A stretch of DNA of 64,000 nt from Rufibacter tibetensis (GTDB taxonomy: Bacteria > Bacteroidota > Bacteroidia > Cytophagales > Hymenobacteraceae), in assembly GCF_001310085.1 (NCBI RefSeq), contig NZ_CP012643.1, positions 4,656,001-4,720,000 of the forward strand. The letters run 5' to 3'. Made by a program: the position numbers and the translations under genes. Numbering within the stretch: the stretch's first letter is position 1; every line of letters begins with the position of its first letter. The notes below the pieces were generated by a model that was given only the letters and a program-made list of their open reading frames with translations, did not search any database and was not told the DNA's origin. Below, in pieces: positions 11,314 to 28,852 of this stretch.

Positions 11314-11410
11314 TCTTAAGATTATATTTTAGGCATAGCTCTTTGATTGTCATAGTGAGTGGGCCGAAGCTTGCGTTCACACAATTTCAGAAACAGCCAC
11401 CTTTTACTCT

Positions 11411-11848: not shown

Positions 11849-11937
11849 TATAGATGCTTGTGTGTTACTGATTCGTGTTACAATGGTGAAAGACTGCCCC
11901 CCAGAACATGGTTTTTACTCTTTGTTTGATGCAGATA

Positions 11938-12435
11938 TTACTTGTTTGCCACCTGCTCAGCAATCATTTTCATAAACCTAAGGTGGAAAATTCCCTCCAT
12001 TATCAGAGCATCAGTTTCATCTGTAGGGGTACTTAGAAATGAAGTCAAGTGATTTTTGGCACCTTCATTTAAAATGCCTTTCTTATATAAGCTTTGCACC
12101 AATGAACTATAGTTTTCAGCAATCTTATAATGCTCATTAAGCACAGGTACAACAGTATATATTACGTTGGAACCAGTTTTGGTGGAAAATCGCTCTTTCA
12201 CATCCTTAGGTAGTTCTTCAAAATGAAGCTGAGTCAATCGGTCGAATATTGCTTTTGTTTCTTTTATTCTTTCTCCCAATATTTCATTCTCTGCCGTTTC
12301 AAAGGAAGTCTCTGAGATAAGTCGATTTTGCTTGAATGTATACAATATTAGAATCAGCTTGTTTTCATCCATTTTTTGGGCAAAAGTTTTCGTAACGCTA
12401 AACAAGATGAAACAGGCTATCAGGGTAAACTTCAT
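11938..12435 (-). CDS. Secreted hypothetical protein
   Basis: 165 residues with a signal peptide (MKFTLIACFILFSVTKTFAQ) and cleavage after FAQ. The mature part is all helical and charged, like small periplasmic helical bundles. No family recognised. It is followed upstream by the unusually long attC-like site at 12453. Confidence 0.7.
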   Translation of the reverse strand: MKFTLIACFILFSVTKTFAQKMDENKLILILYTFKQNRLISETSFETAENEILGERIKETKAIFDRLTQLHFEELPKDVKERFSTKTGSNVIYTVVPVLNEHYKIAENYSSLVQSLYKKGILNEGAKNHLTSFLSTPTDETDALIMEGIFHLRFMKMIAEQVANK

Positions 12436-12452
12436 ATGATTCTTATTTGCAT

Positions 12453-12582
12453 CTAACGGTTAGTAGCTACCCGAAGGCGGCAATTCAGAAGCGATTCACT
12501 GTCACCCAAGAACAAACTTTGATGGAAAGATAAAGCTTGTTTTAACCAGAGAACCGCCACTTGTGGGTAGGTGCTGTTGGCT
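12453..12582 (-). repeat. Long attC-like site (130 bp)
   Basis: Runs from CTAACGG to GTTGGCT. TACCCGAAGGCGG near the left end pairs with CCGCCACTTGTGGGTA near the right end, leaving a long variable loop. Its size recalls long attC sites such as Vibrio repeats and differs from the 50-70 bp sites elsewhere here. Confidence 0.7.
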
Positions 12583-12594
12583 GTGGTTATCCTT

Positions 12595-13689
12595 CTATTC
12601 GCCCCTGTCCATCGATACGCTTATTAGTTTGTATCCCTTTTCTGTTTTAAGAAACTCAAACTGGTTTTGATAAATGCCTTTCCCTTTCTTATGGGGAATC
12701 ACTACCTGCATTACAGGGTATTTTTCAACCAAAAACGTACCGCAGTTATCAAAGTACATGTCATATTCTTTGCCCTCAAAAACCCCAGAGTTTAATCCGC
12801 CAAGCGTTATGGAAAAATCCTGGCCTAGCTCCTTGATTATTGAGAGCCTTTCCTTTATCAAAGAAAAGTGTTTCTCTAGGAGTTTTTTACTTGGTGTGAT
12901 TCTCCAGCCATCAGCATTTTCCCAGAATGCCAAATCCGTTGAAGCTTCCTGCTTTAGATTTTCAAGGGTAAAATTATCAAGCAAAGATTGCTGCAACCAG
13001 TAAGAAAAGTCTTTGCGGTAGCTTACAAACGAATGCCTTATCCCGTCAAAACCTGCAAAGTACTCCCTATTAGGGTCTTCTTCTGAGTTGTCTTGTAGGA
13101 GGTGAGAATAAAGGTCGAGGTCTAAGTCGAAGGTAAATTTTTCAATAATCGCAGTATTCGTTGTGTCAATCAGCATTGTCTTTCCGCCTGTCCAGCTGAA
13201 GTGGTTACAACCTGAGTGGTCATGCCCTTCCCTGAATTCTTTCTTTGCATCAATGAGTGCTATAACCAGGCCATTCTTCACTTGTGAGAGGTGGTTATAG
13301 ATAGCGGGAATAACCACCTTGCCGTTTCTGTTGAACATTCCTACTTTCTCTGTCCTAAGGTCTCTGAACCTTATGAAGCCTTCGCATTCGCAATCTGGGG
13401 TAGCCTCGACAGTATAGGCACTGTCTCTTCCAAAGGATTTACCTGATTTCGTCAGATAATAGAAGTCAGCATACACGCCTTCCCCTTCTGAGGCGATAAA
13501 CACATGGTCCAGTCGGTCTACCACGGACCTGTTTGAGAACTTTGGTTGAATTTGAACTCTCCCGTTTTGGTCTTTGAAGCCAAAGCTTTCTTCTTTCTTG
13601 TCCCAAAATACAGTCCAATGCTCTGACTGCTGGGAATAGGCTAAAGTCCCTATTAATAGAAAAATATAGGTAAGAATTATGGTCTTCAT
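12595..13689 (-). CDS. WG-repeat secreted protein
   Basis: 364 residues with a signal peptide (MKTIILTYIFLLIGTLAYSQ). At least two WG-type beta repeats are visible: ESFGFKDQNGRVQIQPKFSN (about 34-53) and KVGMFNRNGKVVIPAIYNHLSQVKNGL (about 110-136). An acidic middle and an alpha/beta C-terminal part follow. WG repeats usually mediate binding; no enzyme motif is evident. Largest single-gene cassette of this part of the array. Confidence 0.75.
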   Translation of the reverse strand: MKTIILTYIFLLIGTLAYSQQSEHWTVFWDKKEESFGFKDQNGRVQIQPKFSNRSVVDRLDHVFIASEGEGVYADFYYLTKSGKSFGRDSAYTVEATPDCECEGFIRFRDLRTEKVGMFNRNGKVVIPAIYNHLSQVKNGLVIALIDAKKEFREGHDHSGCNHFSWTGGKTMLIDTTNTAIIEKFTFDLDLDLYSHLLQDNSEEDPNREYFAGFDGIRHSFVSYRKDFSYWLQQSLLDNFTLENLKQEASTDLAFWENADGWRITPSKKLLEKHFSLIKERLSIIKELGQDFSITLGGLNSGVFEGKEYDMYFDNCGTFLVEKYPVMQVVIPHKKGKGIYQNQFEFLKTEKGYKLISVSMDRGE

Positions 13690-13690
13690 A

Positions 13691-13753
13691 TAACGAACTT
13701 GTGGAAAAGGTGACGAGGCCGTCGGCCGAAGCTGGCGTTTATACAGTGTTGGT
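13691..13753 (-). repeat. attC-like site, long class
   Basis: About 63 bp with TAACG left, GTTGGTG right and GGCCGTCGGCCGA loop; the left arm is partly mutated (CTTGTGGAAAAGG). Confidence 0.8.
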
Positions 13754-13765
13754 GGAAGTGCTTTT

Positions 13766-14257
13766 TTAATTCTTATCTTTTCTGAATATCATAACAGAAC
13801 CTTCATCAGGGTCACCATATTTAAAGATGATTCCGTTTGGTTTGTTTTCACCAAGTAGTCCCGCATTATTGTTTTCTTCAGGCACTGAATCTAATAATAT
13901 TCCCCAATGTTTCTTTATTCCGCTTGAGCCGTAATCAACACTTCCAACCCAGTCTATAGCCCATTTCCCTTTTTTCGAAATGCCGTTAATATAATTATAT
14001 TCTGCATTTGCAGAAGTCTTGAAATAAGGCATTTGGTTTAGCTCGAAAGTTTTATCTGCTTTGATAGTAATCGTGGGTCGGCTGCTTTTGATTTTATCTT
14101 TATCTAAATTATGATTTACAGTTTGTGTGTCAAATTCATAGACTCCAACTACGTCCTCTATACTTGGTTCTTCTGTAATATATTCATCCGCATAAGGGCT
14201 GTATAAGCAACTTGCCAGTAACACTACCAAAATACAGAGTAGGGCTATGTTTTTCAT
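13766..14257 (-). CDS. Putative lipoprotein
   Basis: 163 residues beginning MKNIALLCILVVLLASC, signal peptide plus lipobox LASC. The C-terminal half (SKKGKWAIDW, KHWGILLDSVPEENNN, NGIIFKYGDPDEGSVMIFRK) has the look of a lipocalin-like or META-like beta barrel used in Bacteroidota lipoproteins that report a threshold-type fold. No named family assigned. Confidence 0.7.
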   Translation of the reverse strand: MKNIALLCILVVLLASCLYSPYADEYITEEPSIEDVVGVYEFDTQTVNHNLDKDKIKSSRPTITIKADKTFELNQMPYFKTSANAEYNYINGISKKGKWAIDWVGSVDYGSSGIKKHWGILLDSVPEENNNAGLLGENKPNGIIFKYGDPDEGSVMIFRKDKN

Positions 14258-14278
14258 TTTTTCATAATTTGCATTACC

Positions 14279-14344
14279 ACCAACGGTTAGTACATAAAGT
14301 GAGCAAGGCGTAGCCGAAGCTTAGCTTATGTGCAGTGTTGGTGG
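14279..14344 (-). repeat. attC-like site, long class
   Basis: 66 bp, CCAACGG to GTTGGTG. Arms TACATAAAG / CTTATGTG are kept, and the loop is changed to GGCGTAGCCGA. Confidence 0.8.
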
Positions 14345-14367
14345 AAGCTATTCTTATAATAAGGGCA

Positions 14368-14697
14368 TCAAGCATCATTTACTAAATACTGTAAAAGTCT
14401 TTTAGCCTTACCCAATTCAGAATAATTTCCTTTTTCAAATTCGTCTTCAAAATATGAGTAGATTTCTACCCCATGACCTATTTCGAATAAATGATAGTAT
14501 TTAGTTCCTTCTATTTCAAATACTAAATCATCATCTACATCTTCGATAGGAAAGAAACAGACTTCTGATTGAATACTTAACTCTCCCTTCGCATAAGCAA
14601 AGATTGCTTCTGATTCATCATCTAAATTTTTCTCTTGATAAAGCTTTTGCAAGCATGCCTCACTACGTAAATACTTAACTAAATCTGCGAGATTCAT
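14368..14697 (-). CDS. Hypothetical acidic protein
   Basis: 109 residues from the ATG at 14697 (MNLADLVKYLRSE). An earlier in-frame ATG would translate 22 residues of the attC-like site, the same spurious peptide (LRPTA.HASCT) that precedes the gene at 28487, so I reject it. Acidic, soluble, with paired strands SEAIFAYAKGELSIQSEVCFFPIED. No family recognised. Confidence 0.65.
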   Translation of the reverse strand: MNLADLVKYLRSEACLQKLYQEKNLDDESEAIFAYAKGELSIQSEVCFFPIEDVDDDLVFEIEGTKYYHLFEIGHGVEIYSYFEDEFEKGNYSELGKAKRLLQYLVNDA

Positions 14698-14715
14698 TGT
14701 CTTTATCTTAGTTAC

Positions 14716-14784
14716 CACCAACGGTCTAGTGCATGAGGCGTGGAAGGCCGTCGGCCGTAGCATGGCTTATGTACAATGTTAGGT
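14716..14784 (-). repeat. attC-like site, long class
   Basis: 69 bp, CCAACGG to GTTAGGT, GGCCGTCGGCCG loop, arms AGTGCATGAGG / GGCTTATGTAC. The stop codon of the gene at 14779 is part of its ACCTAAC core box. Confidence 0.85.
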
Positions 14785-15603
14785 GTAGATTTTCTTTCTA
14801 TTTACTTTATCGCTTGAATAGTCTACGCGGGTGTCAGACTCGCACTTTATCGCCTCTAACTCGCTATTCATGATGGCGCTAATCACGGAGACTGCACCCG
14901 CTGCCAGGGTGAAGTGTAAGTCCGTGTCTGTATAGACAATCCATGATTTATCCATAGCATAAAGGTAACCTATGAAATCTTCCTTGAAGTAAGTGATGGC
15001 TTCTTCAAAGGAACACACCACAAGTTCCATTTCATTGATGTTGTTTGGAGGTATCTGGTAGACGCAAACTTGTTCGGTGTCGGTTGCAGCGCGTAAAACC
15101 GAAACCAGCTTAATAAAAACGGGTCGTGGCAGATAGCCTCCTTTCGGGAACCAGAGGTTCCGTGGGTACCCAATAACCTCAAATAGGGCTTCAAAGCTGG
15201 TTGGGTTAATTTCATTGTGAAATTTCAACCCGTATTTCTCCGCGATACTCTGCCATGTTACATATTCCCATTTTTTTAGATTAGGGTCTGTCATCCATAA
15301 TTTTTGGTTCAACCTTCCTAGCCTCCCGCTATTGGTTTCCCAAGGGTCAGTTGATTTTTGGGTACCTTGTTTGTAGTTGAAGGTGATAATTTCTGAGAGG
15401 ATTTCCTTAAACTCTATGTGATTCTCTAAAGTGTCTGGCTCATCAGCCGTGACTTCGAACGGATGGAATACCTTACAATAAGCCTCAAAAATGGGAGGCA
15501 CGCAGTTTCCTATGGTTACTCCCTCTTCCTCAAAGTTTTCTGGCTTTCGTGGGAGTATGCCATTCCAAATCCAATCAGCCGAATCTATATCCAGTTTTTT
15601 CAT
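14779..15603 (-). CDS. Hypothetical cytoplasmic protein
   Basis: 274 residues, no export signal. The N-terminus (SADWIWNGILPRKPENFE) and the C-terminal DKSWIVYTDTDLHFTLAAGA are characteristic-looking, and I recall similar unnamed Bacteroidota proteins with FPKGGYLPRPVF. The stop codon is supplied by the attC core box. It is the last cassette before the IS110 insertion, whose left end lies 30 bp upstream of its start. Function unknown. Confidence 0.7.
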   Translation of the reverse strand: MKKLDIDSADWIWNGILPRKPENFEEEGVTIGNCVPPIFEAYCKVFHPFEVTADEPDTLENHIEFKEILSEIITFNYKQGTQKSTDPWETNSGRLGRLNQKLWMTDPNLKKWEYVTWQSIAEKYGLKFHNEINPTSFEALFEVIGYPRNLWFPKGGYLPRPVFIKLVSVLRAATDTEQVCVYQIPPNNINEMELVVCSFEEAITYFKEDFIGYLYAMDKSWIVYTDTDLHFTLAAGAVSVISAIMNSELEAIKCESDTRVDYSSDKVNRKKIYT

Positions 15604-15689
15604 TCTTTAACTTACACCTAACGTACTGGGCTCGTATGTTAGCGGCAGTTGATTAAATTAGGCAAAGGAAACGAATTAACAATAAACCA

Positions 15690-15815
15690 AAAACCAGATA
15701 GAAGGGATAGGGTGTACTTGGCCAGACACATATCGATGATGTCGTCGTTTAGAATCTCCACCCTTCTATCAACTTTCTTAGAGCCTGGACAGTACCTGGG
15801 TCCATTTCAACGAGA
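15690..15815 (+). ncRNA. Predicted IS110 bridge RNA
   Basis: Two stem-loops lie in the order known from IS621. First, GATAGAAGGG (15697) pairs with CCCTTCTATC (15761). The enclosed loop carries GTACTTGGCC (15714-15723), close to the left target GTACTGGGCT, and CGTCGTTTAG (15743-15752), the reverse complement of the right target CTAAACGGCG with one mismatch. Second, GGAC/GTCC (15787-15803) encloses ACAGTACCT, identical to the element's right end at 16982-16990, followed by ACGAG complementary to the left end CTCGT. This is the expected arrangement of target and donor guides. RNA ends are estimated. Confidence 0.7.
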
Positions 15816-15872
15816 CCGAATCAAAAGCGAGCAAAGGCGATAAAGAGAGTTACCGGTTTTAAATGTACGCCA

Positions 15873-16931
15873 ATGAAACCACATGTACTAAAGCAGGCCC
15901 TGGGAATAGACGTGGCCAAAGACTCTCTTTCCCTTTGCTTGGGCACCCTGACGCAGGATCTGGAAAAGCAGTTTGTTGCCGGTGGTGACGTGGCCAATGA
16001 CCCCAAAGGTTTCCAAAGAATGGAGAAATGGCTAGCCAAGCTCGAAGTCCACAAGGAGAAACTGGTGGTCGTGATGGAAGCCACCGGGGTATACCATGAG
16101 GCCCTGGCGCTGTACCTGCACCAGAAAGGATATGCCGTCAGCGTGATGCAATCAGGACGGGTAAAGCGCTACGCCCAAAGCCTGAGCCAGCGCTCCAAGA
16201 CGGACGCCCTGGACAGCCGGATGCTGGCCATGCTGGGCTGCGAGCGGAAACTGACGCCTTGGTCCCCACCGGACGGGACGCTGCGGCACCTGAAAGCCCT
16301 GAGCAGGGAGCGCTCCTTCCTGCTCAAGGAGAAAAACGTGGAAAAAAACCGGCTGCACGCAATAGAAGCCTCTGCCTACGGCAACCCACGGGAGGTAAAG
16401 CGCCAGGCAAAGCGGCTGAAGCTGGTGGAGGCGCAGCTCCAGGAAATCGAGGGGGAGATGAAAGGGCTGGTAGCGCAGGATAAAGCTCTGGCCGGGAAGA
16501 TCCAGTGCCTGGAAAGCATACCGGGGGTATCTTTCATCTCGGCGGCGACGGTGGTTGGGGAGACCTGCGGCTTCAGCGAGATCACCAGCGCAAAGCAGCT
16601 GGCAAGCTATGCCGGGTATGATGTGGTGCTGAAGGAATCCGGCGCTTTCCGGGGCGACACCAAAATAAGCAAGAAAGGGAACAGCCACATCAGGAGCATA
16701 CTCCACATGCCTTCCATGACGGCCGTGCGGGTCAATCCGACCCTGAGGCAGTTCTACACCCGGCTAAAGCCCAACAAGGCAAAGCCTATAGTGGCCCTGG
16801 TGGCGGTACAGCGAAAACTGCTGCTGCTCATGTACAGTCTGTTCAAGAGAAATGAGTACTACGACCCGCTATTTGAAATAAAAAAACAGCAAGGGCCGAA
16901 ACCCTTGCTGCACAGGATAGAGGCAATTTAA
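15873..16931 (+). CDS. IS110-family transposase (DEDD recombinase)
   Basis: 352 residues. The N-terminal RuvC-like part shows the acidic set GIDVAKDSL (Asp about 13), VMEATGVYH (Glu about 72) and SKTDALDSR (Asp pair about 111-114). A helical linker follows, then the C-terminal Transposase_20-type domain with SIPGVSFISAATVVGE and FRGDTKISKKGNSHIRSIL, which holds the conserved serine. Full length for the family. It would act with the predicted bridge RNA encoded just upstream to insert at CT within attC stems. Codon use is GC-richer than in neighbouring cassettes. Confidence 0.92.
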   Translation: MKPHVLKQALGIDVAKDSLSLCLGTLTQDLEKQFVAGGDVANDPKGFQRMEKWLAKLEVHKEKLVVVMEATGVYHEALALYLHQKGYAVSVMQSGRVKRYAQSLSQRSKTDALDSRMLAMLGCERKLTPWSPPDGTLRHLKALSRERSFLLKEKNVEKNRLHAIEASAYGNPREVKRQAKRLKLVEAQLQEIEGEMKGLVAQDKALAGKIQCLESIPGVSFISAATVVGETCGFSEITSAKQLASYAGYDVVLKESGAFRGDTKISKKGNSHIRSILHMPSMTAVRVNPTLRQFYTRLKPNKAKPIVALVAVQRKLLLLMYSLFKRNEYYDPLFEIKKQQGPKPLLHRIEAI

Positions 16932-16988
16932 AAATTGACATCTTCCTAAGTTAGTTTGTCTAGATAAACTTGACTTTTGACACAGTAC

Positions 16989-17043
16989 CTAAACGGCGGG
17001 CGAGGCCGTCGGCCGAGACTGGCGTTTAGCCTAACCGTTAGCT
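16989..17043 (-). repeat. attC-like site, split by the IS110 element
   Basis: The right part of the attC (CTAAACGGCG ... GTTAGCT, with GGCCGTCGGCCGA loop). The missing left end, CACCTAACGTACTGGGCT, lies at 15615-15632 on the other side of the insertion sequence. Confidence 0.8.
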
Positions 17044-17069
17044 GTTGTTGTTCTTTTTTATGATATTTT

Positions 17070-17414
17070 CTAATACTCTTCTTCTAACTCTGATATTATA
17101 AGGTCAGGCTTTTCTACTGAATACCTAATCCTAATAGAATCGCCTTCATCAAGGTCTTTAGGATTTTTGTTCCAACCCAGCGTAGCCTCATACACCTTCT
17201 CACTAATTTTGTATTTAACTTGTATCGTCCGTCCCTTGTAATAATGAATGTCCGTTATAATGCCTTTTGAGTATTCATAGTTATTATTGACTGTGTTAAT
17301 TCTTATTTTGTGTTTCTCATCACCTCTTTCCATGAACCAATAAAGTGTTCCAATTATAGTAATGACTAATCCAATGTTAAATAAAACCAATTTTAACTTT
17401 TCACTCATTTTCAA
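17070..17414 (-). CDS. Small membrane-anchored protein, DUF3592-like
   Basis: 114 residues with one N-terminal membrane helix (about 8-27). The following domain (YEYSKGIITDIHYYKGRTIQVKYKISEKVYEATLG, then LDEGDSIRIRYSVEKPDLI) resembles DUF3592-type domains of small membrane proteins. Start at MKMSEK or two codons later. Role unknown. Confidence 0.65.
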   Translation of the reverse strand: MKMSEKLKLVLFNIGLVITIIGTLYWFMERGDEKHKIRINTVNNNYEYSKGIITDIHYYKGRTIQVKYKISEKVYEATLGWNKNPKDLDEGDSIRIRYSVEKPDLIISELEEEY

Positions 17415-17428
17415 TTTTATTCAATAAC

Positions 17429-17496
17429 AGCTAACGGTCTCGTGTAAACGGCGGCGAAGACCGTCGGCCGAGACTGGCGTTTAGGTGTTGTTAGCA
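17429..17496 (-). repeat. attC-like site, long class
   Basis: 68 bp, GCTAACGG to GTTAGCA, arms GTAAACGGCGGCG / GGCGTTTAG around CCGTCGGCCG. The next gene's last codons lie inside it. Confidence 0.88.
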
Positions 17497-18008
17497 CCTG
17501 TTTTTATTTTTTTTCCGCACCAAGGACAGAACTTAATAGATATTCCTGAAGTGCCTCCATCATGAATTAATATCCTGTATTGGCTTCCTTGTTCATCTCT
17601 ATCAAGTATTACATCTGGGCAGTCGTATACTGAATCATGGATTTCACATTTCTTGTTAAACTGTGAAGCCATCATTCTGCAACAAGACTTAATTCTTCTT
17701 TTTGACTCTGCCTCTTTCAGTACTTTATCGTACTTCCTTCTTATATCTTCCTTTGTAAAGTCGCTTATTTTTATCGTGAAATCCCCTTTTCTAAATGCTT
17801 GTTTGGCTTTTTGGTGTAGCAAACAATACATAGTCCATATAAAATAACCCTCCGCGGTACTTTCAGATTTTTCCTCAGCAGCGTTCCATATATCTATTAG
17901 GTTTTGTGAGTGGAAGCCAGTTGCACCTTGAACAAACCTTCCATCGCTTATGTCTAGCTGTTCAGGGAATAGCTGGTTTATTTGGTTATATATAGTTTCA
18001 AAATTCAT
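17481..18008 (-). CDS. Protein with DUF6980-like zinc domain
   Basis: 175 residues. A helical N-terminal part (1-100) precedes a Cys/His domain: CCRMMASQF, then CEIHDSVYDCPDVIL, IHDGGTSGISIKFCPWCGKKI. The spacing of CC, CxxH, DCPD and CPWCG matches the DUF6980 pattern, likely a structural zinc site. The final KTGANNT and the stop are encoded within the attC-like site, so the tail was set by the cassette junction. Confidence 0.7.
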   Translation of the reverse strand: MNFETIYNQINQLFPEQLDISDGRFVQGATGFHSQNLIDIWNAAEEKSESTAEGYFIWTMYCLLHQKAKQAFRKGDFTIKISDFTKEDIRRKYDKVLKEAESKRRIKSCCRMMASQFNKKCEIHDSVYDCPDVILDRDEQGSQYRILIHDGGTSGISIKFCPWCGKKIKTGANNT

Positions 18009-18021
18009 TATTTAAATTGGT

Positions 18022-18087
18022 GCTAACGTACTTGTGTAAACGGCGGCGACGGCCTTCGGCCTAATTGGCGTTTACACGTTGTTAGCT
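18022..18087 (-). repeat. attC-like site, long class
   Basis: 66 bp, GCTAACG to GTTAGCT, arms GTGTAAACGGCGG / TTGGCGTTTACAC, loop ACGGCCTTCGGCC. Confidence 0.88.
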
Positions 18088-18097
18088 GTGGTTTTTT

Positions 18098-18604
18098 TTA
18101 ACTTTCCCAAGTTATATGGTGTAGCTCACCTTCTGCATTAGTTTTAACAACTAAAAGCTGGTTACTAGGTTCCCCATCAATGTCGATTGAGTAGTCGAAA
18201 ACTCCAAAGTAATCTGTTTCATATTTCCCATCAGGGTATAATCCAACTCTTACTAATCTTAATTTATCGAGAAGTTGCCTTTCTTTTGAAGTGTTAGCGT
18301 CATCAATGTTGATGGTCCTAGACAATTCGTCCTCGTCTAATTCTTCAAGATGGAAGTTGATATAATCAAAAGCTTCACCATTCTCTTTGAAGTCGTTTTC
18401 AATTAGGAATTTATTCTGTTCACTAAACTCACTAATGTTCTCAAGGAAAGTCTTAATACTTTTATAAGTTCTTTCATCCGTTGACTTTCCTTTAAAATTA
18501 ATATCGATACTTATTATATCAGCATTCAGTATTGTTTCAACATGATAATATTCTTCCAAGGAAGAAAGGTCTATTTCTTTAAAATATGGTAATGAATTTT
18601 TCAT
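18098..18604 (-). CDS. DUF2004 family protein
   Basis: 168 residues, acidic and soluble. EEYYHVETILNADIISIDINFKGKS at the start, YINFHLEEL in the middle and LVRVGLYPDGKYETDYFGVFDYSI towards the end follow DUF2004. Members are small standalone proteins of unknown activity, often near toxin and immunity genes. One gene per cassette, with well-kept attC-like sites on both sides. Confidence 0.78.
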   Translation of the reverse strand: MKNSLPYFKEIDLSSLEEYYHVETILNADIISIDINFKGKSTDERTYKSIKTFLENISEFSEQNKFLIENDFKENGEAFDYINFHLEELDEDELSRTINIDDANTSKERQLLDKLRLVRVGLYPDGKYETDYFGVFDYSIDIDGEPSNQLLVVKTNAEGELHHITWES

Positions 18605-18626
18605 CTATTTAGTTTTTAAAATCACA

Positions 18627-18694
18627 CCTAACGGTCTCGTGCAAACAGCGTGCGAGGCCGTCGGCCGACGCATGGTGTTTGCACAATGTTGTGC
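18627..18694 (-). repeat. attC-like site, long class
   Basis: 68 bp, CCTAACGG to GTTGTGC, arms GTGCAAACAGCGTGCG / CGCATGGTGTTTGCAC with small bulges; a reference example for the class. Confidence 0.9.
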
Positions 18695-18703
18695 ATAGTA
18701 TTT

Positions 18704-19447
18704 TTATTTTTCAGCTTTCGGTATTTCTCCACTCACCCATTGCTTAACTTGTAATTCAGACCCAGGAAGCATCGCCATTTGCTTTGTCTTCAAGTCAATT
18801 ATGCAAAATGCTAATATGTGATAGTCAGCCTTATTATGTTTAGCGGCAAATTCATCATTTTCAGCTTTTGCAACATAGCCTAATATTCTTAGGATGTTGC
18901 CCTTTACTTCATAACCGCTTGTTACAAGTGAAGCTATCCAAATGGTATTTCCTCCTTCTAGTTTCACTTCATAATAAGGTTTGCCATTATGGGCAGAGTA
19001 AACTTGAGTCACTAGTCCATTAAATGCAATTATTTCCCCGCTTCGTTTTCCCATCTTGACAGCATCTGTTCCTGTAAAGTTAGTCGGGCAAGGAATAGCT
19101 CTACTTTTTGCAGCGGGTTCAACGGAATTGTCTAGTTCTGATTGGATAAGTTTTTTGATTTTGTCACAGTTGCTGTTGAGGGTGGAAACTATGCCACTTT
19201 TTATCTTTTCTAATGCACCTGGTTGTGTTAATATTTTTTGTTCTTCTGAATTTACTATACTAAAAATATTATTAAACTCTTTGTCGTAGCATCTATTAAA
19301 TTCAGGCTTAATCTCCGAATAAGAGGTTAAGTCGTCCTTAATGCAGTCGCAAATTTTGTCTGACACCTTTTTCGTAATGGTTTCTATGCTTTGGCTGTAG
19401 CCAGTCAAGCAGCACAATGACAATATTAAAGTCGCTATTTTTTTCAT
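18704..19447 (-). CDS. Secreted hypothetical protein
   Basis: 247 residues with a signal peptide (MKKIATLILSLCCLTGYSQ). The N-terminal domain has paired cysteines (KICDCIKDDL, RCYDKEF, NSNCDKI) typical of small helical periplasmic domains in Bacteroidota. The C-terminal 110 residues form a beta-rich part (SGEIIAFNGLVTQVYSAHNGKPYYEVKLEGGNTIWIASL) resembling an OB-like fold. Function unknown. Confidence 0.7.
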   Translation of the reverse strand: MKKIATLILSLCCLTGYSQSIETITKKVSDKICDCIKDDLTSYSEIKPEFNRCYDKEFNNIFSIVNSEEQKILTQPGALEKIKSGIVSTLNSNCDKIKKLIQSELDNSVEPAAKSRAIPCPTNFTGTDAVKMGKRSGEIIAFNGLVTQVYSAHNGKPYYEVKLEGGNTIWIASLVTSGYEVKGNILRILGYVAKAENDEFAAKHNKADYHILAFCIIDLKTKQMAMLPGSELQVKQWVSGEIPKAEK

Positions 19448-19460
19448 ATCTTATATTATG

Positions 19461-19525
19461 CACAACGGCTTGTATAAACGACGGCAAGGCCGTCGGCCGA
19501 AGCTGACGTTTATGCCTTGTTAGCG
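19461..19525 (-). repeat. attC-like site, long class
   Basis: 65 bp, CACAACGG to GTTAGCG, arms GTATAAACGACGGC / GCTGACGTTTATG, GGCCGTCGGCCGA loop. Confidence 0.88.
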
Positions 19526-19991: not shown

Positions 19992-20481
19992 AACTACGGG
20001 ATATATGGAACAACTACGGTTATTGGCACTATGGATGGAAGTCTATCTATCCTTTTCAAACCTAAGTTTGAGTGGGTATGTACTAATCTATGTACCCTTA
20101 CCATACAATATATGATTATACAATATATGTAAATTCCTTAATCATATACCTTCTCACACCCATTTTCTTGCACTTATCACATATAAGCTGAGTTTCAATC
20201 AATTCATTGATGCTTGTAATACTATACTCTTGTATCCCTGGGGCATGAATTCTCATTTATGAGCAGTTTTAATCTTTGAACTTGGCACACCTGAAGGTAA
20301 AAGTGATAAAGGTTTAACCGTAACTATTCGGGTAAATCCGAATATAAGCGGTTATATGCGGATAGATTCGAAATCTGCTTATTATTAGCTTGCCTAAACA
20401 AACCTGAGTTGAAGGAGCCACTTCCCTGACTTAATCAATTTCAAAGCCAAACAAGAATTTAAAGCTTAGTTAAGGAAACGG
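19992..20481 (-). repeat. Internal second copy of the array leader (attI-like)
   Basis: Bases 19992-20192 are identical to 33510-33710, and similarity (roughly three quarters by eye) continues to about 20481, matching 33999. At the left edge both copies end ...CCCGTAGTT on the minus strand and then differ (GTTAGCG here, GTTGTGC there), the exact place where integron cassettes join. The inverted repeat of the other copy is present but degraded (CCGTAACTATTCGG then CCGAATA). No complete gene is visible in these 490 bp. It marks either fusion of two arrays or an older leader displaced into the array. Confidence 0.8.
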
Positions 20482-20624
20482 TCTATTGTTTCTCTATTGA
20501 GATTCAATATTTTCCCAATTTCTTTACTACTAGTCCTCGCATTAAAAGAGCTACTTCCACTAGTGACTTCGTAAAGCTGACTTAAGAACTCGAACCTCTG
20601 TCTTTTCTTTTCTTGTATATTCAT
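20466..20624 (-). pseudogene. Truncated winged-helix-like gene
   Basis: 52 codons from the ATG at 20624. The sequence KRQRFEFLSQLYEVTSGSS then SKEIGKILNLNRETIDRFLN resembles the first half of a small winged-helix protein common in bacteria; the second half, which usually reads on into a wing, is missing. The frame enters the leader repeat at about 20481 and ends at the first stop there, so the gene was cut by the recombination that placed the leader. Confidence 0.55.
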
Positions 20625-20644
20625 TTTCTGATTTAATATTTCCT

Positions 20645-20697
20645 TTACCGTTATCGTATAAACAGCGTGCGTGGTGGGCATTTACACAAAGCTGGAC
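20645..20697 (-). repeat. Decayed attC-like site
   Basis: CGTATAAACAGCGTGCG then GGGCATTTACAC keep the two arms, but the AAC and GTT core boxes and the loop are lost. Confidence 0.45.
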
Positions 20698-22729: not shown

Positions 22730-22749
22730 GGTTACAAAGGAGGCTCAGC

Positions 22750-22808
22750 GATAGCATTAACAGTATGAAGGCCGTCGGCCGAAGCATAGCTTATGCACCT
22801 TGTTATGG
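22750..22808 (-). repeat. attC-like site, left core lost
   Basis: Right half intact (GGCCGTCGGCCGAAGCATAGCTTATGCACC then GTTATGG). The left core reads GCGATAGC rather than CTAACG. Confidence 0.65.
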
Positions 22809-22822
22809 TGCGTTATTTTCTG

Positions 22823-23311
22823 TCAAAAAGGTGTTCCCACATTTTTCTTGAACAACAAACAGAAGGCTTCGTCAGCCTGTCCATATAGCTTTTCGTAGCC
22901 ATCCAAGTTACTGATGTAATCATTCAGTTGGTTATTTGTCAATGTTGTTGCTAACTGCAAATCTGAAATCTCAAACGGAAATTGACTGTTGTTTGGATTA
23001 GGTGTATGCAAGAATAATGCGTCACTATAACTGTCAAAGTCTAGTATAATGGAATAGAGTTGAAAGTCAGTTTTTAATTTTCTTGTCTTTTCAACGAGTA
23101 AGTCAAAGTGTCTAAACAACTTGTCTAGGTGGGGTTTTCTTCTTTTGAAACTGTCATTGCCGTAACCTTTCCAGTCAAAGTGGAGATGCCAATTGTCTAA
23201 CCAGGTCTCGGGATTGTCAAAGTCCAGCCAAGTCGCTTTGTCAAGGTCGTTTCCAGTTGCAAGATTTCTATAATATCTTCTAAGTCCTCTGTGTTTCCTT
23301 AATCCGCTCAT
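22823..23311 (-). CDS. Hypothetical cytoplasmic protein
   Basis: 162 residues, basic N-terminus (MSGLRKHRGLRRYYRNL). It contains WLDNWHLHFDWKGYGNDSFKRRKPHLDKLFRHFDLL and later DFDSYSDALFLHTPNPN, a pattern that looks conserved but that I cannot attach to a named family. Soluble. Single gene cassette. Confidence 0.7.
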   Translation of the reverse strand: MSGLRKHRGLRRYYRNLATGNDLDKATWLDFDNPETWLDNWHLHFDWKGYGNDSFKRRKPHLDKLFRHFDLLVEKTRKLKTDFQLYSIILDFDSYSDALFLHTPNPNNSQFPFEISDLQLATTLTNNQLNDYISNLDGYEKLYGQADEAFCLLFKKNVGTPF

Positions 23312-23351
23312 GTCGATGTACTGTCCTCCTAAAAATGGCTATAGCGGTCGG

Positions 23352-23395
23352 GCTATAAAGCGTATGGATGCTTTTTTGCTGTTGTTAGTAGTTGT
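23352..23395 (-). repeat. attC-like site, short class, partly decayed
   Basis: GGGCTATAAAGCG pairs loosely with GCTTTTTTGC, ending GTTGTTAGTA; compare the short site at 32850. The stop codon of the ABC gene follows immediately. Confidence 0.5.
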
Positions 23396-24048
23396 TATAA
23401 TCTGGCATATCCCAGCGTTTCTATCTCTTCCGTGCTTTTCACCGAATGGATACTGCCATCAGCAAGCAGATACATATCATCGCTTATGTCCAATATGTGC
23501 CTGAACATGTGGTCGGTGAGCAACAGCCCTTTGTTGCTTTTCTCTTCGAGCAAAAACTCCTTCACTTTCTCGATTTGTATCGGGTTCAGATGGGTGAAAG
23601 GCTCGTCCAGCATGGCGAACTGCGACTTGGATTTTACGATGGCATAAATCTCCACCAGCCTACGGCCGCCCCCCGAGAGACTCTTCATCGATGAATTGTG
23701 TCTGCCGTTAAACTCTGGGAACCTCTTCTCGAAAGGTGCATACTCAAGGCCGAAGTCACTGAACACCCGTTTCAGGGAAAGCCAAGCAGGTATGAAGTTG
23801 AACTGAGGCAGGTAAAGCAGTAAATCAGGCCGCTTGAATGCCGCTGTTTGGAAAACACCGTCAAAACGGACTGACTGGCCACATTCCAGGCTGCCATAAA
23901 TCACTTTCATAAGGCAGGATTTTCCCTGCCCGTTTCTGCCCAACAGACCAGTTATCCTGCCTGTCTCACATTTCAGGTAGATGTCCGAGAGAATCCTACG
24001 CCCTCCTAATTCCAACAGGATGCTGTCTGCCTCTAGTCTGTGAACCAT
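23395..24048 (-). CDS. ABC transporter ATP-binding protein
   Basis: 217 residues, a single nucleotide-binding domain. Walker A is GRNGQGKS (about 36-43), the signature region is KSLSGGGRRLVEI (about 129), Walker B is FAMLDEP (about 150), and the switch His is in LLLTDHMFR. It would power a small ABC system at the inner membrane. The partner is probably the 104-residue membrane protein encoded 5 bp upstream. An ABC pair is unusual cargo for an integron-like array; substrate unknown. Confidence 0.85.
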   Translation of the reverse strand: MVHRLEADSILLELGGRRILSDIYLKCETGRITGLLGRNGQGKSCLMKVIYGSLECGQSVRFDGVFQTAAFKRPDLLLYLPQFNFIPAWLSLKRVFSDFGLEYAPFEKRFPEFNGRHNSSMKSLSGGGRRLVEIYAIVKSKSQFAMLDEPFTHLNPIQIEKVKEFLLEEKSNKGLLLTDHMFRHILDISDDMYLLADGSIHSVKSTEEIETLGYARL

Positions 24049-24053
24049 TCGAT

Positions 24054-24368
24054 TTAGTAGGGTAGATAGTTAAGGAACAGGAAAACCAAAAAGTCAAATG
24101 AGAGGGTCGAGGTCCATAGGTTTACTTTGGAAAAGCCCAGATTCAGGTAATAGAAATACTCATGCCTCTTGTAACTGTTCACAGACAGGAACATCACGCC
24201 AAGGGTCGCTACCTTGAACCAGAAGATTATCGGGTATATCCGCAAACCAGACTCTATGTTCAGACTTAGGCAAGCCAAGGTTATCACCATGGATGGAGCG
24301 GCAAAGGCCGTGTAGAAAGTCCATATTAATCGGACTGATTTAGTGAACCTCATTTTGCCTGCTGCCAA
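24054..24368 (-). CDS. Small membrane protein, likely ABC partner
   Basis: 104 residues with three hydrophobic segments (about 16-36, 45-63, 82-102). Its stop lies 5 bp before the ATP-binding gene, so the two are co-transcribed and probably form one complex. It is too short for a standard ABC permease, so it may be a reduced permease or an accessory subunit. Start at the first ATG or at MRFTKS five codons later. Confidence 0.65.
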   Translation of the reverse strand: MAAGKMRFTKSVRLIWTFYTAFAAPSMVITLACLSLNIESGLRIYPIIFWFKVATLGVMFLSVNSYKRHEYFYYLNLGFSKVNLWTSTLSFDFLVFLFLNYLPY

Positions 24369-24753
24369 TTATAAGGTAAACGGAGTAAATAGTTTTTTTA
24401 GCACTATGGATGCAGCTTTCACACACTCCTTTTCCCAAGTGGATATGGATAGTTAGGAGCGATTATCTGTTCCGCTTTCAAGGTATTTTGATATTCCAAT
24501 ATAGGTAAAGATTGTGATAACCTACAACCTAAACCTTATGCTTAGGCAAGTCTTCACGTAGGACAAAAAGAAGCTGCAAACTGGAAATGCAATAAGGGAA
24601 ACAGGGCTTATTTAGGCTTGAAATAACAAAGACAATATCAACAATATCCTTACCACTGATGGACTAGCCTTGAAGGAGAAAGGCATTGGCTTAACCTTTT
24701 GAATGAAGGTGCCAATTTTTTACCTTGGTTCAATAACCATAATAGGTATTGCC
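24369..24753. other. 385 bp without a recognisable gene
   Basis: I see no ORF of coding character on either strand and no clean attC-like site. The sequence contains several A/T runs and scattered stops. It separates the divergent ABC pair (minus) from the plus-strand gene at 24754 and could hold promoters for both. Confidence 0.5.
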
Positions 24754-25002
24754 ATGGAAAAGAATGTCACGTTGAACGGGGAATCAGTGTCCTTAAGGAT
24801 TGAGGTAAAACGGCTGGACAAGTACAACCATATCCTGGTACTGAACAACGTGGAATACCCAGTCAAGGTAATCACGGACAGCAGTGCGGGCGTTGAAACC
24901 CTCTCCTACTATGACTACCGAGGCCAAAAGGTAGTGGATGGCAACGGCAATCCTGTCAAGACGGACAGGGGGCTGGTTGAGTACTTGCTAAGCAAAAGCT
25001 AA
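24754..25002 (+). CDS. Hypothetical protein, opposite orientation to the array
   Basis: 82 residues from the ATG at 24754 (MEKNVTLNGESVSLRIEVKRLDKYNHI). Compact alternating-strand pattern, with YYDYRGQKVVDGNGNPVKTD near the C-terminus. An upstream in-frame start adds 17 hydrophobic residues and cannot be excluded. Composition looks coding. One of two plus-strand genes inside the array. Function unknown. Confidence 0.5.
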   Translation: MEKNVTLNGESVSLRIEVKRLDKYNHILVLNNVEYPVKVITDSSAGVETLSYYDYRGQKVVDGNGNPVKTDRGLVEYLLSKS

Positions 25003-25092
25003 ACAGGCCAGGAAGAACCTACTAGACTCTTATATGGTAATCTACCCCGTTTTCATTGCCTAAGAAGATTCACCTCAACGGCTGACCTTTGC

Positions 25093-25458
25093 CTAATCCT
25101 GCCAGACTGTTCTGATAAAAGTGGCGGTTGAGAACTCCACCCCGCCTATCTGGGTGTTGCCCGTAATCCCGCCCAGTCTCCCCAATTCGTTGCACTCCGA
25201 ATCGATTACCTGGCTTGATAGGTCTGCCCCGCAGGTTCCCATGTCAAAGACATACACTGTTTTTCCCTGGAAAGAATATTCCATCACGTTAGCCCCATCA
25301 TCATGGCATGCAGTCTTGCTGAACCGCTTTATACTTTTCTCAACGCACCTCGGAACCCCTTTCTCTATCTCAACCAGCTCGCAGCCGCTGAATACCAATG
25401 AGAATACAATAGCACAAAGTGGTAGGGTAAGCTTTATAAGCTTTAAGGGGTTTCTCAT
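25093..25458 (-). CDS. Lipoprotein, DUF6970-like
   Basis: 121 residues with a signal peptide and lipobox FSGC. The mature part (RCVEKSIKRFSKTACHDDGANVMEYSFQGKTVYVFDMGTCGADLSSQVIDSECNELGRLGGITG) follows the DUF6970 pattern: cysteines at intervals, a Y-x-Y/F-x-G-K-x-V-Y strand, a CNxLGxxGGI segment and a final F-x-x-T-V-W strand. Probably lipid-anchored in the envelope; function unknown. Confidence 0.65.
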   Translation of the reverse strand: MRNPLKLIKLTLPLCAIVFSLVFSGCELVEIEKGVPRCVEKSIKRFSKTACHDDGANVMEYSFQGKTVYVFDMGTCGADLSSQVIDSECNELGRLGGITGNTQIGGVEFSTATFIRTVWQD

Positions 25459-25482
25459 GTAAATCGATTAGTGGAAAAGACG

Positions 25483-25606
25483 ATAACGGTATCGCTAATC
25501 AAGTGACCCCTTCGGTGCCTGAAAGGTTGCCTAGTGAAATACTATATTTTCTTCAGAAACGAACCTTGCTAAAAGATGGCTTAGCTGCCGCATAGGTGCG
25601 GTTGTA
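25483..25606 (-). repeat. Long attC-like site (about 124 bp)
   Basis: AACGGTATCG at the left and GGCTTAGCTGCCGCATAGGTGCGGTTGTAG at the right, with about 75 bp between them. It may be a genuinely long site or a short-class site that gained an insertion. Confidence 0.5.
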
Positions 25607-25612
25607 GCTTTT

Positions 25613-26023
25613 TTACTTCTTGCTTCTCCAATTTTTATATCCCATTACATCTTTCCTTACTTTCCTTTTCCAGTCGTTTCCGTAAGCCTTTTGCAGGTGG
25701 TCAAGGATTACGAAGTTATATTCTTCCGTTAATGTATATTCAGGACCTGTACAGCCATCCTCTAAGTAGAAGACATTATACTTGCGTTCAAAAGTGCTAT
25801 CAGTACTATAAACTACTGGTGCTATTCCACTTCGAAGCAAAAGAAATGGCACATCATTCTTAATATCCTTATCTGCAAGTTCTCGAGCTTCATCAACCGT
25901 AGTAACAAACACTAACTTAATGGCACCACTATTATTGATGTCAGCGTCAGTCAGCTTTCTTGATTGCCCAAAACCCACAAATGAGATTAAGATTAATAAA
26001 CCTGCTAGGAAAAGATATTTCAT
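25613..26023 (-). CDS. Secreted protein with FEKKY-like domain
   Basis: 136 residues with a signal peptide (MKYLFLAGLLILISFVGFGQ). The C-terminal part, containing YLEDGCTGPEY then YNFVILDHLQKAYGNDWKRKVRKDVMGY, fits the FEKKY pattern (cysteine, YN.....L...yG..Wr..vr.DvxGy). Likely periplasmic or surface exposed. Function unknown. Confidence 0.65.
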   Translation of the reverse strand: MKYLFLAGLLILISFVGFGQSRKLTDADINNSGAIKLVFVTTVDEARELADKDIKNDVPFLLLRSGIAPVVYSTDSTFERKYNVFYLEDGCTGPEYTLTEEYNFVILDHLQKAYGNDWKRKVRKDVMGYKNWRSKK

Positions 26024-26036
26024 AATTTAAATACGG

Positions 26037-26089
26037 TACAACGCACTTGGCTATGCGGCGGCACAGCTAACCTATAGGTCTTGTTGTGC
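26037..26089 (-). repeat. attC-like site, short class
   Basis: 53 bp, TACAACG to GTTGTGC, arms GGCTATGCGGCGG / CAGCTAACCTATAGG. Confidence 0.8.
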
Positions 26090-26095
26090 AAAGCT

Positions 26096-26460
26096 TTACC
26101 ATTCTTTGGAAATCGCACAAATCCCGCTATCTACATACTTACTTACAAATGAAAGTGGCAGGTTCATTTCTTTCGAAGCGGTACCAATTTCCATCCCATC
26201 AAACCCCTCAAAAAGCAAATTGCCCTTTTGTCTTATTTCTAGGCTTTGAAACTCTTCTTCAACTTGTTCCATTCTTACAAGGTCACTTAGACGTTCTTTA
26301 TTTGCAGGTGTTAAGATTACTTGTTGGTAATAAAAAACTTACTTGGCTCCATTAGCTTGTGAAATTCCGTGTTACTAATGGATGGAGCCTGAATGAAACA
26401 AACAGCCCCATCTGGAACAAGCCTGATTATATCAATGAAGAAAATTTGAGTTTCAGTCAT
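26096..26460 (-). pseudogene. Frameshifted cassette gene
   Basis: An ATG at 26460 opens a 47-codon frame (MTETQIFFIDIIRLVPDGAV ... KLMEPSKFFITNK, stop). The coding character continues in another frame as QQVILTPANKERLSDLV ... VDSGICAISKEW, with a stop at 26096. The two join smoothly near 26321 if one base is lost or gained. The full product would be about 120 residues, soluble. The cassette is otherwise well bounded by short-class sites, so this is a recent inactivation or a sequencing error. Confidence 0.6.
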
Positions 26461-26484
26461 AAAGGATTCAATGATTCAAGTTTT

Positions 26485-26537
26485 ACCCAACGCACTAGGC
26501 TATGGCGCTTTTTAATGCGCTATAGGTGTTGTTGTGT
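26485..26537 (-). repeat. attC-like site, short class
   Basis: 53 bp, CCCAACG to GTTGTGT, arms GGCTATGGCGC / GCGCTATAGG around TTTTTAAT, a nearly perfect short hairpin. Confidence 0.82.
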
Positions 26538-26546
26538 GTAGCTTTT

Positions 26547-27023
26547 CTATTTTTTCCCAGAGATTCTAAAATCGTAATGCACCACACTGCCATTTGGGCA
26601 ACCATCACGCGGTTTTTCTACTTTTCTAAATCCCAGTTTTTTCAGTAAACCTTCTTGGGCATTGCTTTTAACTCGTATGGCTAATGAACTTGGAACCATT
26701 ACTTCTGCATAGTCACATCTTGTTAAAGGTTCTCTGTACCAAGACTCTTCTATATTCATTCCTTGTCCAACTAGAAAGCCAATTATTAGTTCTGGATGAT
26801 TTGTTCCGCCTATCTGGGTGACCCCATTACGTGTTATTCCTACAAAATCATAATAATTACCAACAGGATAACCACCAACCTTATTCGAATCTTGGGTAAT
26901 GATTAGAGATAAAAAAAACTTCTCCTGATATATTTCTACTGCTTTGTCAATTCTTTTTTGAGCCAACGCAGCAAAAGAAATCGATGAAACCAATATAAGT
27001 AGGAGAAGTAGGAATTTATTCAC
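26547..27023 (-). CDS. Secreted hypothetical protein
   Basis: 158 residues with a signal peptide (MNKFLLLLLILVSSISFAALAQ). Mature part soluble and mixed alpha/beta, with a final LLKKLGFRKVEKPRDGCPNG. No recognised family. Single-gene cassette. Confidence 0.7.
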   Translation of the reverse strand: MNKFLLLLLILVSSISFAALAQKRIDKAVEIYQEKFFLSLIITQDSNKVGGYPVGNYYDFVGITRNGVTQIGGTNHPELIIGFLVGQGMNIEESWYREPLTRCDYAEVMVPSSLAIRVKSNAQEGLLKKLGFRKVEKPRDGCPNGSVVHYDFRISGKK

Positions 27024-27050
27024 TTTATCTATTGGCTTTGAATTATAGAG

Positions 27051-27779
27051 TTACAAACAACGGCCTCGTGCATGAGGCGTGCTAGACCGTCGGCCGTAGC
27101 ATGGCTTATGTATCTTGTTAGCCAAAGTTATTTTAACCCCAGCATTTTCCAGGCACCAATCTGCTTGATTACACCAATCTTTCCCTTGATTGTAGAATCC
27201 TCTTTTAAAAATGCCTACAGGAAAGGCTATGTCTTTACTTTTGCCATTGTTGGTGATAATGGTAAATTCTTTGCAGTTACCAATGGTGTAGGTCTCCTTT
27301 GAAATAGGCTTGCTCTCTTCTTCTAAAACACTTTCAGGTGCATTAGGATTAGTCTCGCTTTCTTCGTTATGGTGATAGCTCACTAACTTAGCCCCAAACT
27401 CCAATGTTATTTTATTCCCCTCTAGTTTGTAGGTTCCCCTTCTCACGTAATGTCCTTCGCAGAGGTCATCGGACACAAACTGATTCTCTGTTATGAACAT
27501 CAAGTCAGCGTTGCAGCAATCACATGCCTCTGCTATTTCACAAACGTTTTCGTCAATTCCACCTCCCAGCACAAATGTTTTGCCTTTTAAATCAGTAATT
27601 CCAATAGGCGTAGTCGGATTGGTGTGTTCAACTTTGTTTATGAAATTACCTGAGTCAATTGAGGTAATCAGACTTGTTGTATCAGCATCTGCACTAGTAT
27701 CTGAAACTTGATTGTTCTCTTTAGTATCTGAACATGAATATAAAATGCTTAATAAAATGATGCTTACAATCCCTTTCAT
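27051..27779 (-). CDS. Putative lipoprotein whose C-terminus is encoded by attC
   Basis: 242 residues starting MKGIVSIILLSILYSC, signal peptide plus lipobox. A beta-rich domain follows (TPIGITDLKGKTFVLGGG, CCNADLMFITENQFVSDDLCEGHYVRRGTYKLEGNKITL), resembling lipocalin-like lipoproteins. The reading frame has no stop before the attC-like site, runs right through it (last residues ANKIHKPCYGRRSSTPHARG) and ends just beyond. The native end was therefore probably lost or replaced at the junction. Confidence 0.7.
   Translation of the reverse strand: MKGIVSIILLSILYSCSDTKENNQVSDTSADADTTSLITSIDSGNFINKVEHTNPTTPIGITDLKGKTFVLGGGIDENVCEIAEACDCCNADLMFITENQFVSDDLCEGHYVRRGTYKLEGNKITLEFGAKLVSYHHNEESETNPNAPESVLEEESKPISKETYTIGNCKEFTIITNNGKSKDIAFPVGIFKRGFYNQGKDWCNQADWCLENAGVKITLANKIHKPCYGRRSSTPHARGRCL
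27056..27123 (-). repeat. attC-like site, long class
   Basis: 68 bp, ACAACGG to GTTAGCC, arms TGCATGAGGCGTGC / GCATGGCTTATGTA, ACCGTCGGCCG loop. Fully translated as the tail of the overlapping lipoprotein gene. Confidence 0.85.
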
Positions 27780-27796
27780 TTATGATTTTAATTTTG

Positions 27797-27864
27797 GCTA
27801 ACGTCTAGTGCATGAGGCGGCTAGGCCATCGGCCGAAGCATGGCTTATGCACTAGACGTTAGGT
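27797..27864 (-). repeat. attC-like site, long class, most symmetrical
   Basis: 68 bp, GCTAACG to GTTAGGT. The outer arms CTAACGTCTAGTGCAT and ATGCACTAGACGTTAG pair perfectly, which is unusual in the series. Confidence 0.88.
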
Positions 27865-27886
27865 GTGGAGATTCTCCTTTTTTAAG

Positions 27887-28363
27887 TTAGTATACCCAGG
27901 TATTTTTATAGTGAACAGAATCATCTACCAACGTGATTTTCCTATCAGCAGAATCCATAGGCACAAAGCCATGTTGTTTATAGTTTTCTTTGGTTATTCC
28001 TTTTGGAAAGGTTCGAGAAACAATAATGCTTCGGCTATTTGAGGTCATTAGTGTATCTCTATACACCTTCTCTAGTTTCTTTTCTCCTTTATAGTATATG
28101 GAAACTTCAATGAGTTTGATACTGTCAGGATAGTAAAAGTGCTTCCAGAATGAATGAGTCCAACTAGTGTTAATCCCAGTTTCTACAACTAACTCCCCGT
28201 TTAACTTCACTTCTAATCTTTCTTCAGGATAAAGCTCGGGGCTTATTACTGAAAAATTTGCTAACTCATTTTCCTGAACTTCATAGTCCTTCCTTTCCTG
28301 CTCCTGAGTACAGCTACCTATCCAAAAGAAGCAAAAAGCACCGATGAATAATTTTTTAGTCAA
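27887..28363 (-). CDS. Putative lipoprotein
   Basis: 158 residues beginning MTKKLFIGAFCFFWIGSC, signal peptide with lipobox IGSC. The mature part is beta-rich (RLEVKLNGELVVETGINTSW, LIEVSIYYKGEKKLEKVYRDTL). No named family. Flanked on both sides by well-kept long-class sites. Confidence 0.7.
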   Translation of the reverse strand: MTKKLFIGAFCFFWIGSCTQEQERKDYEVQENELANFSVISPELYPEERLEVKLNGELVVETGINTSWTHSFWKHFYYPDSIKLIEVSIYYKGEKKLEKVYRDTLMTSNSRSIIVSRTFPKGITKENYKQHGFVPMDSADRKITLVDDSVHYKNTWVY

Positions 28364-28390
28364 AGCTTATTTTCATTAACTCTCTTCTCA

Positions 28391-28458
28391 CCTAACGGTT
28401 AGGCTAAACGACGGCTGTCGCCGTCGGCTGGAGATGACGTTTAGCCTAACCGTTAGCC
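28391..28458 (-). repeat. attC-like site, long class
   Basis: 68 bp, CCTAACGGTTAGG to CCTAACCGTTAGC, with arms GGCTAAACGACGGC / GATGACGTTTAGCC. It carries CTAAACGACG, an exact match for the IS110 right target guide at 15743. Confidence 0.88.
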
Positions 28459-28486
28459 TTAGTTATTTTTTACAGGAGGTGTGAAG

Positions 28487-28705
28487 TTATTCTTCTTTTT
28501 CTTTTCCCCATATTTTGTCCACTTGCGAATCTTTAACAAAAAAGTAAAGCAATCCGCCACAAGCAATTCCAGCCGCTAAAACTGCTATTAAGTGCGTTTT
28601 TATATCTTCGGAGGTTTCGAGTTCTCCCTTTATAAATCCATTAATCGTTAATGTAAATGCCATAAAGATTCCGAATGCTAGACTTAGCTTGGCTTTTCTA
28701 TTCAT
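28487..28705 (-). CDS. Small membrane protein
   Basis: 72 residues from the ATG at 28705 (MNRKAKLSLAFGIFMAFTL). Two membrane helices (about 7-22 and 37-57) and a charged tail. The in-frame extension upstream translates the attC-like site and is rejected. No family recognised. Confidence 0.65.
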   Translation of the reverse strand: MNRKAKLSLAFGIFMAFTLTINGFIKGELETSEDIKTHLIAVLAAGIACGGLLYFFVKDSQVDKIWGKEKEE

Positions 28706-28774
28706 TGTTGTCGAGTTATTGATTTTCTGATGACTTTTGTAAGTATCAGTTTGATTTCTATTTATTTTAGTTAA

Positions 28775-28843
28775 GGCTAACGGTATCGTGCATGAGGCGT
28801 GCAAGGCCGTCGGCCGTAGCATGATTTTTATACAGTGTTGTAG
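28775..28843 (-). repeat. attC-like site, long class
   Basis: 69 bp, GCTAACGG to GTTGTAG, GGCCGTCGGCCG loop. The two arms differ (CGTGCATGAGG against ATGATTTTTATACAG), as if assembled from two site types. Confidence 0.82.
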
Positions 28844-28852
28844 CACGTTTTT

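Follow-up and report, generated by a model that had tools for sequence, protein, structure and literature searches.

Integrons are described as systems with one integrase and, usually, one attI site adjacent to it. Copies of attI inside cassette arrays are already known from class 1 and class 2 integrons (PMC12901181). The additional domain of the integrase IntI is held to be required for handling single-stranded attC hairpins. It has been called both defining and necessary (PMC9668308, PMC4792948), and recombinases without it have already been noticed, the insertion being "not fully conserved" in an integron-like subgroup (PMC8138268). For Bacteroidetes, IntegronFinder 2.0 recalls an earlier survey in which only cassette-less integrases were found and adds one complete integron, from Salinibacter. 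The open-licence literature searched here described neither multiple or orphan attI sites nor integrons of Bacteroidota whose recombinase is devoid of the extra domain, and we found in it no dispersed attI sites served in trans and no orthologous attI loci with exchanged cassettes.

The window, a 64-kb stretch of Rufibacter tibetensis DNA, contains two related leaders on the minus strand. Leader 1 (33510..34002) heads a cassette array and leader 2 (19992..20481) lies in its interior; we consider it likely, from sequence comparison, that this repeat at 20 kb represents a second attI platform, embedded in the array of a dispersed integron-like system. On alignment, all 201 bases of 19992-20192 and 33510-33710 are identical, as reported in the initial annotation, and this pair is the longest exact repeat of the window. 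Read on the minus strand, both copies end in CCCGTAG|TT and part exactly at G|TT, again as had been noted, running into TTAGCGTG and TTGTGCTA, respectively, and into cassettes that are unrelated between the two leaders. Beyond the identical block the similarity runs on to 20481 and 34002, where 227 of 288 aligned bases match (78.8%). At the divergence rate of this tail, 201 identical bases have a probability of p ~2e-21, and the figures therefore point to a sharply bounded tract that was recently homogenised within an older duplication. Since the tail is 21% diverged, the identity dates the last homogenisation and not the duplication. It would stem from recent homologous recombination between the leaders, by gene conversion or crossing-over, and the resulting tract would end at the cassette joint because the homology ends there. 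Full copies of the leader, which the initial annotation had suggested looking for, were found neither elsewhere in the genome or in 15 relatives nor among 72,556 plasmids; only the attI end recurs, in 13 attI-like sites genome-wide. Next to leader 1, the strand that does not carry the array bears a serine resolvase-type gene (34147-34719) and a C-5 cytosine methylase gene (35116-36060).

The attI site of leader 2 (attI2, 19992..20041, minus strand; model R1, 52.7 bits) carries the cut G|TT at its left edge, and the first cassette gene follows at 19975, which agrees with the earlier proposal of an attI inside the array with its joint at this trinucleotide. Its counterpart in leader 1 (attI1, 33510..33559, minus strand) is identical, with the same score, and its first cassette holds a TPR protein gene (32905-33531, Pfam). 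The interior attI is not unique. A third attI-like site lies within the array at 31.8 kb (31799..31847, minus strand; model R1, 48.6 bits), a fourth, degenerate one is found just left of the window, 6 kb away (C1:4649989), and nine more occur elsewhere in the genome. On the minus strand, model R2 places attC sites in the upstream part of the array (22743..32900) at 22743, 27055, 27796, 28390, 28775, 29346, 29978, 30544, 31985, 32535 and 32849, and in the downstream part (962..19525) at 962, 13688, 14278, 14716, 16989, 17429, 18021, 18626 and 19460. The attC types detected by this model are the same in both halves, and each half holds one member of a pair of paralogous cassettes (998-1297 and 21665-21964, 87% identical over 300 nt). 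The two dated phases of cassette capture that had been read from the repeat find no support in these shared features, nor in the 21% divergence of the tail, and the shared features likewise lend no support to different cassette relatives on the two sides of leader 2. Within the array, the minus-strand genes of a ~12-kb stretch (1700-13600) are free of model R2 attC matches, and this stretch either carries another attC type or decayed sites or is an inserted block. An IS110-family transposase gene lies on the plus strand at 15873-16931, inside the cassette array.

The arrangement of the leaders could also have arisen by the joining of two platforms, each with its own array, through ordinary chromosomal rearrangement or duplication and with no recombinase-driven move of attI. 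We regard this history as quite possible, if somewhat short of probable. The old tail past the identical block, the common stopping point of both leaders and the paralogous cassette shared by the two halves would all fit it, but a second copy of the neighbouring chromosomal flank is not seen beside leader 2.

The far edge of leader 2 is abutted by a 52-aa ORF (20466..20624, minus strand), which had been described as a winged-helix-like gene cut by the repeat. Its stop codon indeed falls within the segment common to both leaders, but its match to a helix-turn-helix (HTH) domain is weak and under the cut-off (E 0.012), and the similarity continues past the edge of the identical block at 78.8%. 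Upstream of this HTH-like ORF lies a degenerate attC-like remnant (20632..20690, minus strand), recognised from its sequence and from repeat family D6, in which G|TT is not intact. This remnant is one reason to ask whether the ORF and the leader (~20649 to 19992) moved as a single cassette whose 3' site is attI and not attC. Cassettes of this attI type are known, and IntI1 both excises and inserts them (PMC12901181). The third attI-like site resembles a second case, in that a truncated Imm53 gene (31830..31967, left end approximate, minus strand; Pfam PF15580 positions 1-40 of 92) runs into it, so that an ORF followed by attI occurs at both places. The upstream joint of the proposed unit, however, is degenerate and lacks an intact GTT, and very efficient excision is reported for a unit flanked by two identical copies of attI (PMC12901181), yet that of leader 2 persists. 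Such a move, which would also account for the third site, seems to us possible, though less likely than not.

Under the preferred reading of leader 2 as a second attI platform, the leaders would be remains of loci that once held a recombinase gene. A stretch of leader 1 (33850..33920, minus strand) resembles the promoter region of the recombinase on contig C2, with an alignment score of 62 against a shuffled maximum of 37. Within it, CGGATATAAGCGGATA (33867-33882) is otherwise found in this genome only upstream of the recombinase gene, and the relative G012 carries it upstream of its own. Promoter region and attI follow each other in leader 1 as they do on C2, minus the gene, and both leaders are therefore read as old platforms that probably kept promoter region and attI and lost the recombinase gene. 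Coding remnants of the recombinase were sought in the leaders by tblastn, and matches stayed at chance level.

This recombinase is represented in the genome by one close homolog only, a 484-aa protein encoded on C2, a contig of 235,438 bp with zero tRNA genes that may be a plasmid; a 73-kb Pontibacter plasmid bears a relative with 68% identity. The C2 gene adjoins an attI site. In 11 of the 16 genomes from the genus (G000, G001, G002, G004, G005, G006, G007, G009, G010, G012 and G014), the same 56-nt site directly follows the recombinase gene on its 3' side, which supports the identification of the shared leader end as attI and corresponds to the placement of attI beside the recombinase in integrons. 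The protein is Xer-like. Its best NCBIfam model is of XerA type (NF040815), under the cut-off at 205 vs 220 bits, and the IntI model TIGR02249 yields 199 bits against a cut-off of 265. The spacing from GKGxKxR to HxLRH is 58 residues in the C2 recombinase and 58-59 in 80 of 80 relatives tested, compared with ~101 residues in VchIntIA (counted from the alignment). About 43 residues are thus missing from the protein and its relatives where IntI has its additional domain. No classical IntI was detected over the cut-off near the array or in the 16 genomes, and the search controls likewise returned nothing, so the residue spacing carries the argument that this domain is lacking. In an AlphaFold model (mean pLDDT 81, pTM 0.60), two similar N-terminal alpha/beta repeats precede the recombinase part, and the best Foldseek matches are XerA (E 2e-14), an archaeal Xer and IntI4 2a3v (E 2e-12). 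At locus L021 (8490-9944), residues 1-180 of the protein form an N-terminal extension for which a pair of similar beta-beta-alpha-beta-beta-alpha-beta repeats is predicted.

The distribution of attI was followed with a degenerate pattern taken from the first copies found and with a 56-nt model built from 58 copies. The pattern gave 63 matches in 11 of the 16 genomes of the genus (0 for the backwards control), nearly all of them ending in TAG|TT, after which come a cassette-like start and then a gene. With the model, 128 matches were obtained in 15 of these genomes, 13 of them here and 0-18 per genome. Across the family, at least one site is present in 37 of 81 genomes and none in two of six genera. 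Both attI and the recombinase occur in 34 of these genomes, attI only in 3, the recombinase only in 12 and neither in 32, a pattern that runs along genus lines. Two family members, G023 and G039, have 8 and 10 attI matches and no recombinase match at E<=1e-60; their sites may have outlived the recombinase, or the enzyme may be more distant.

Among 64 attI sites examined, an intact recombinase gene lies within 2.5 kb upstream of 7, another 4 show remnants, and none is detectable at 53, some of whose flanks are short. Decayed recombinase genes adjoin attI at L150 (G010:C111:60919-62371) and L152 (G002:C2:238146-238508), which suggests that decay of the neighbouring gene is one route to orphan sites. 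Many orphan sites are orthologous across species, with flanks that are 80-97% identical: 97% over 1551 bp, right to the cut, between G004 and G007, 86-89% over ~1.3 kb among G012, G000 and G010, and 88% over 1459 bp between G002 and G010. Just past the cut, identity at orthologous sites is 42-60% in a forced global alignment, and there is no BLAST match at the joint; in some other orthologous pairs the alignment is lost 4-290 bp short of the cut. Insertion at G|TT, as in integrons, is thus indicated comparatively, by flank homology that stops at the cut and cassettes that differ beyond it. This combination of orthologous flanks and differing cassettes is our best evidence that orphan sites accept cassettes. 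An accessory hairpin precedes 17 of the 53 recombinase-less sites and none of the 11 that have an intact or decayed recombinase; confined to a subset, it was rejected as a universal attI feature. A TATAGTATATTCGG-like box, which may correspond to the Pc promoter that drives cassettes in integrons, stands before 24 of the 53 orphan sites and is absent from the same 11, and a subset of orphan sites has both elements.

The attC sites form hairpins with R''/R' ends that are organised in arrays, as in integrons. Compensatory changes back their pairing, with 31 cells altered on both sides compared with 15 in shuffles, and sliding controls collapse. Of the 36 attC sites in this genome, 33 have an attI upstream of them on the same strand, and six dispersed attI loci are followed by an attC after 490-1283 bp. 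Recombinase loci, 80 in number and for the most part from Bacteroidota, gave 73 attC matches, of which 70 lie on the strand of the gene and 3' of it and none 5', the remaining three being the same hairpins read in reverse. In 68 more distant relatives, scanned without a model, there are 3.5 sites per 10 kb downstream and 0.3 upstream. The flavobacterial attC matches are individually weak (E 1e-5 to 5e-3), and their direction is what counts.

The missing domain raises the question of whether a classical IntI, visiting on other elements, works these attC sites, with no part played by the Xer-like gene next to attI. IntI enzymes can work in trans on integrase-less arrays (PMC9668308). Against such a visitor stand the lack of any IntI over the cut-off in 16 genomes, for which the controls were uninformative, and the occurrence of arrays in distant relatives only 3' of this recombinase, and we judge its involvement improbable. 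That the repeat is an unrelated insertion element, a possibility raised with its first description and in keeping with its identity and sharp bounds, can be dismissed almost entirely, given the absence of a transposase, the different flanks, the diverged tail and attI homology to ~60 other sites.

The reading as a second platform draws on attI homology and dispersal, on attC downstream of attI, on attI beside the recombinase and on differing cassettes at orthologous loci, and also on the joint occurrence of attI and recombinase in the family. The single tyrosine recombinase on C2 would join circular cassettes to any of ~13 attI sites, acting in trans on those that are dispersed, and cassettes would enter via attC hairpins at G|TT. 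Against this mechanism stands the lack, in the C2 recombinase, of the additional domain that is regarded as necessary for recombining attC (PMC4792948), and another enzyme could therefore be acting; the joint occurrence of attI and recombinase follows genus lines, the leaders retain no detectable recombinase coding remnant, and G023 and G039 pair attI with no recombinase match at E<=1e-60. A broader proposal, which we see as evenly balanced, is that of a dispersed integron, in which many conserved attI sites around the genome would serve as docking points where an Xer-like recombinase without the IntI additional domain captures attC cassettes in trans. Recombinases of the same lineage stand at the head of attC arrays across Bacteroidota, Flavobacteriaceae among them, and the system would then represent either a second integron origin or a form predating the extra domain. 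If true, the evolution of attC recombination becomes directly testable, the integrase-less attC clusters of Bacteroidota gain a possible explanation, and integrase-based searches overlook a class of cassette-capturing systems; the attC arrays here accompany a recombinase without the extra domain and up to 18 attI sites per genome.

Several described systems share part of this organisation. Like CALIN-type arrays, the array of the window has at least two attC sites and no integrase gene nearby, the recombinase residing only on C2, but attI sites occur at its head and in its interior, and these are homologs of the one beside that distant recombinase. The attI- and delta-attI-type cassettes of class 1 and 2 integrons (PMC12901181) likewise place attI within an array, behind an ORF and in the place of attC; in those cassettes the attI is that of the local integrase, present as a fragment or in one copy, whereas here a 490-bp leader and 13 attI-like sites occur with no adjacent integrase. 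Cassettes inserted far from the integrase gene are also known from attG sites (Loot et al. 2024, cited in PMC12444791), which are described in that citation as diverging from classical att sites; the sites here are conserved homologs of the recombinase-adjacent attI, many of them at orthologous positions. XerA-type recombinases (NF040815; PDB 5hxy, 4a8e) are the best sequence and fold matches of the C2 recombinase, which differs from them in an N-terminal extension of ~200 residues and in that its genes head attC arrays. Finally, sedentary chromosomal integrons, consisting of IntI, attI and attC, likewise have attC hairpins with RYYYAAC/GTTRRRY ends, an attI by a tyrosine recombinase, cassettes in one direction and the joint G|TT; unlike them, the system described here has a recombinase without the IntI additional domain and many dispersed attI sites.
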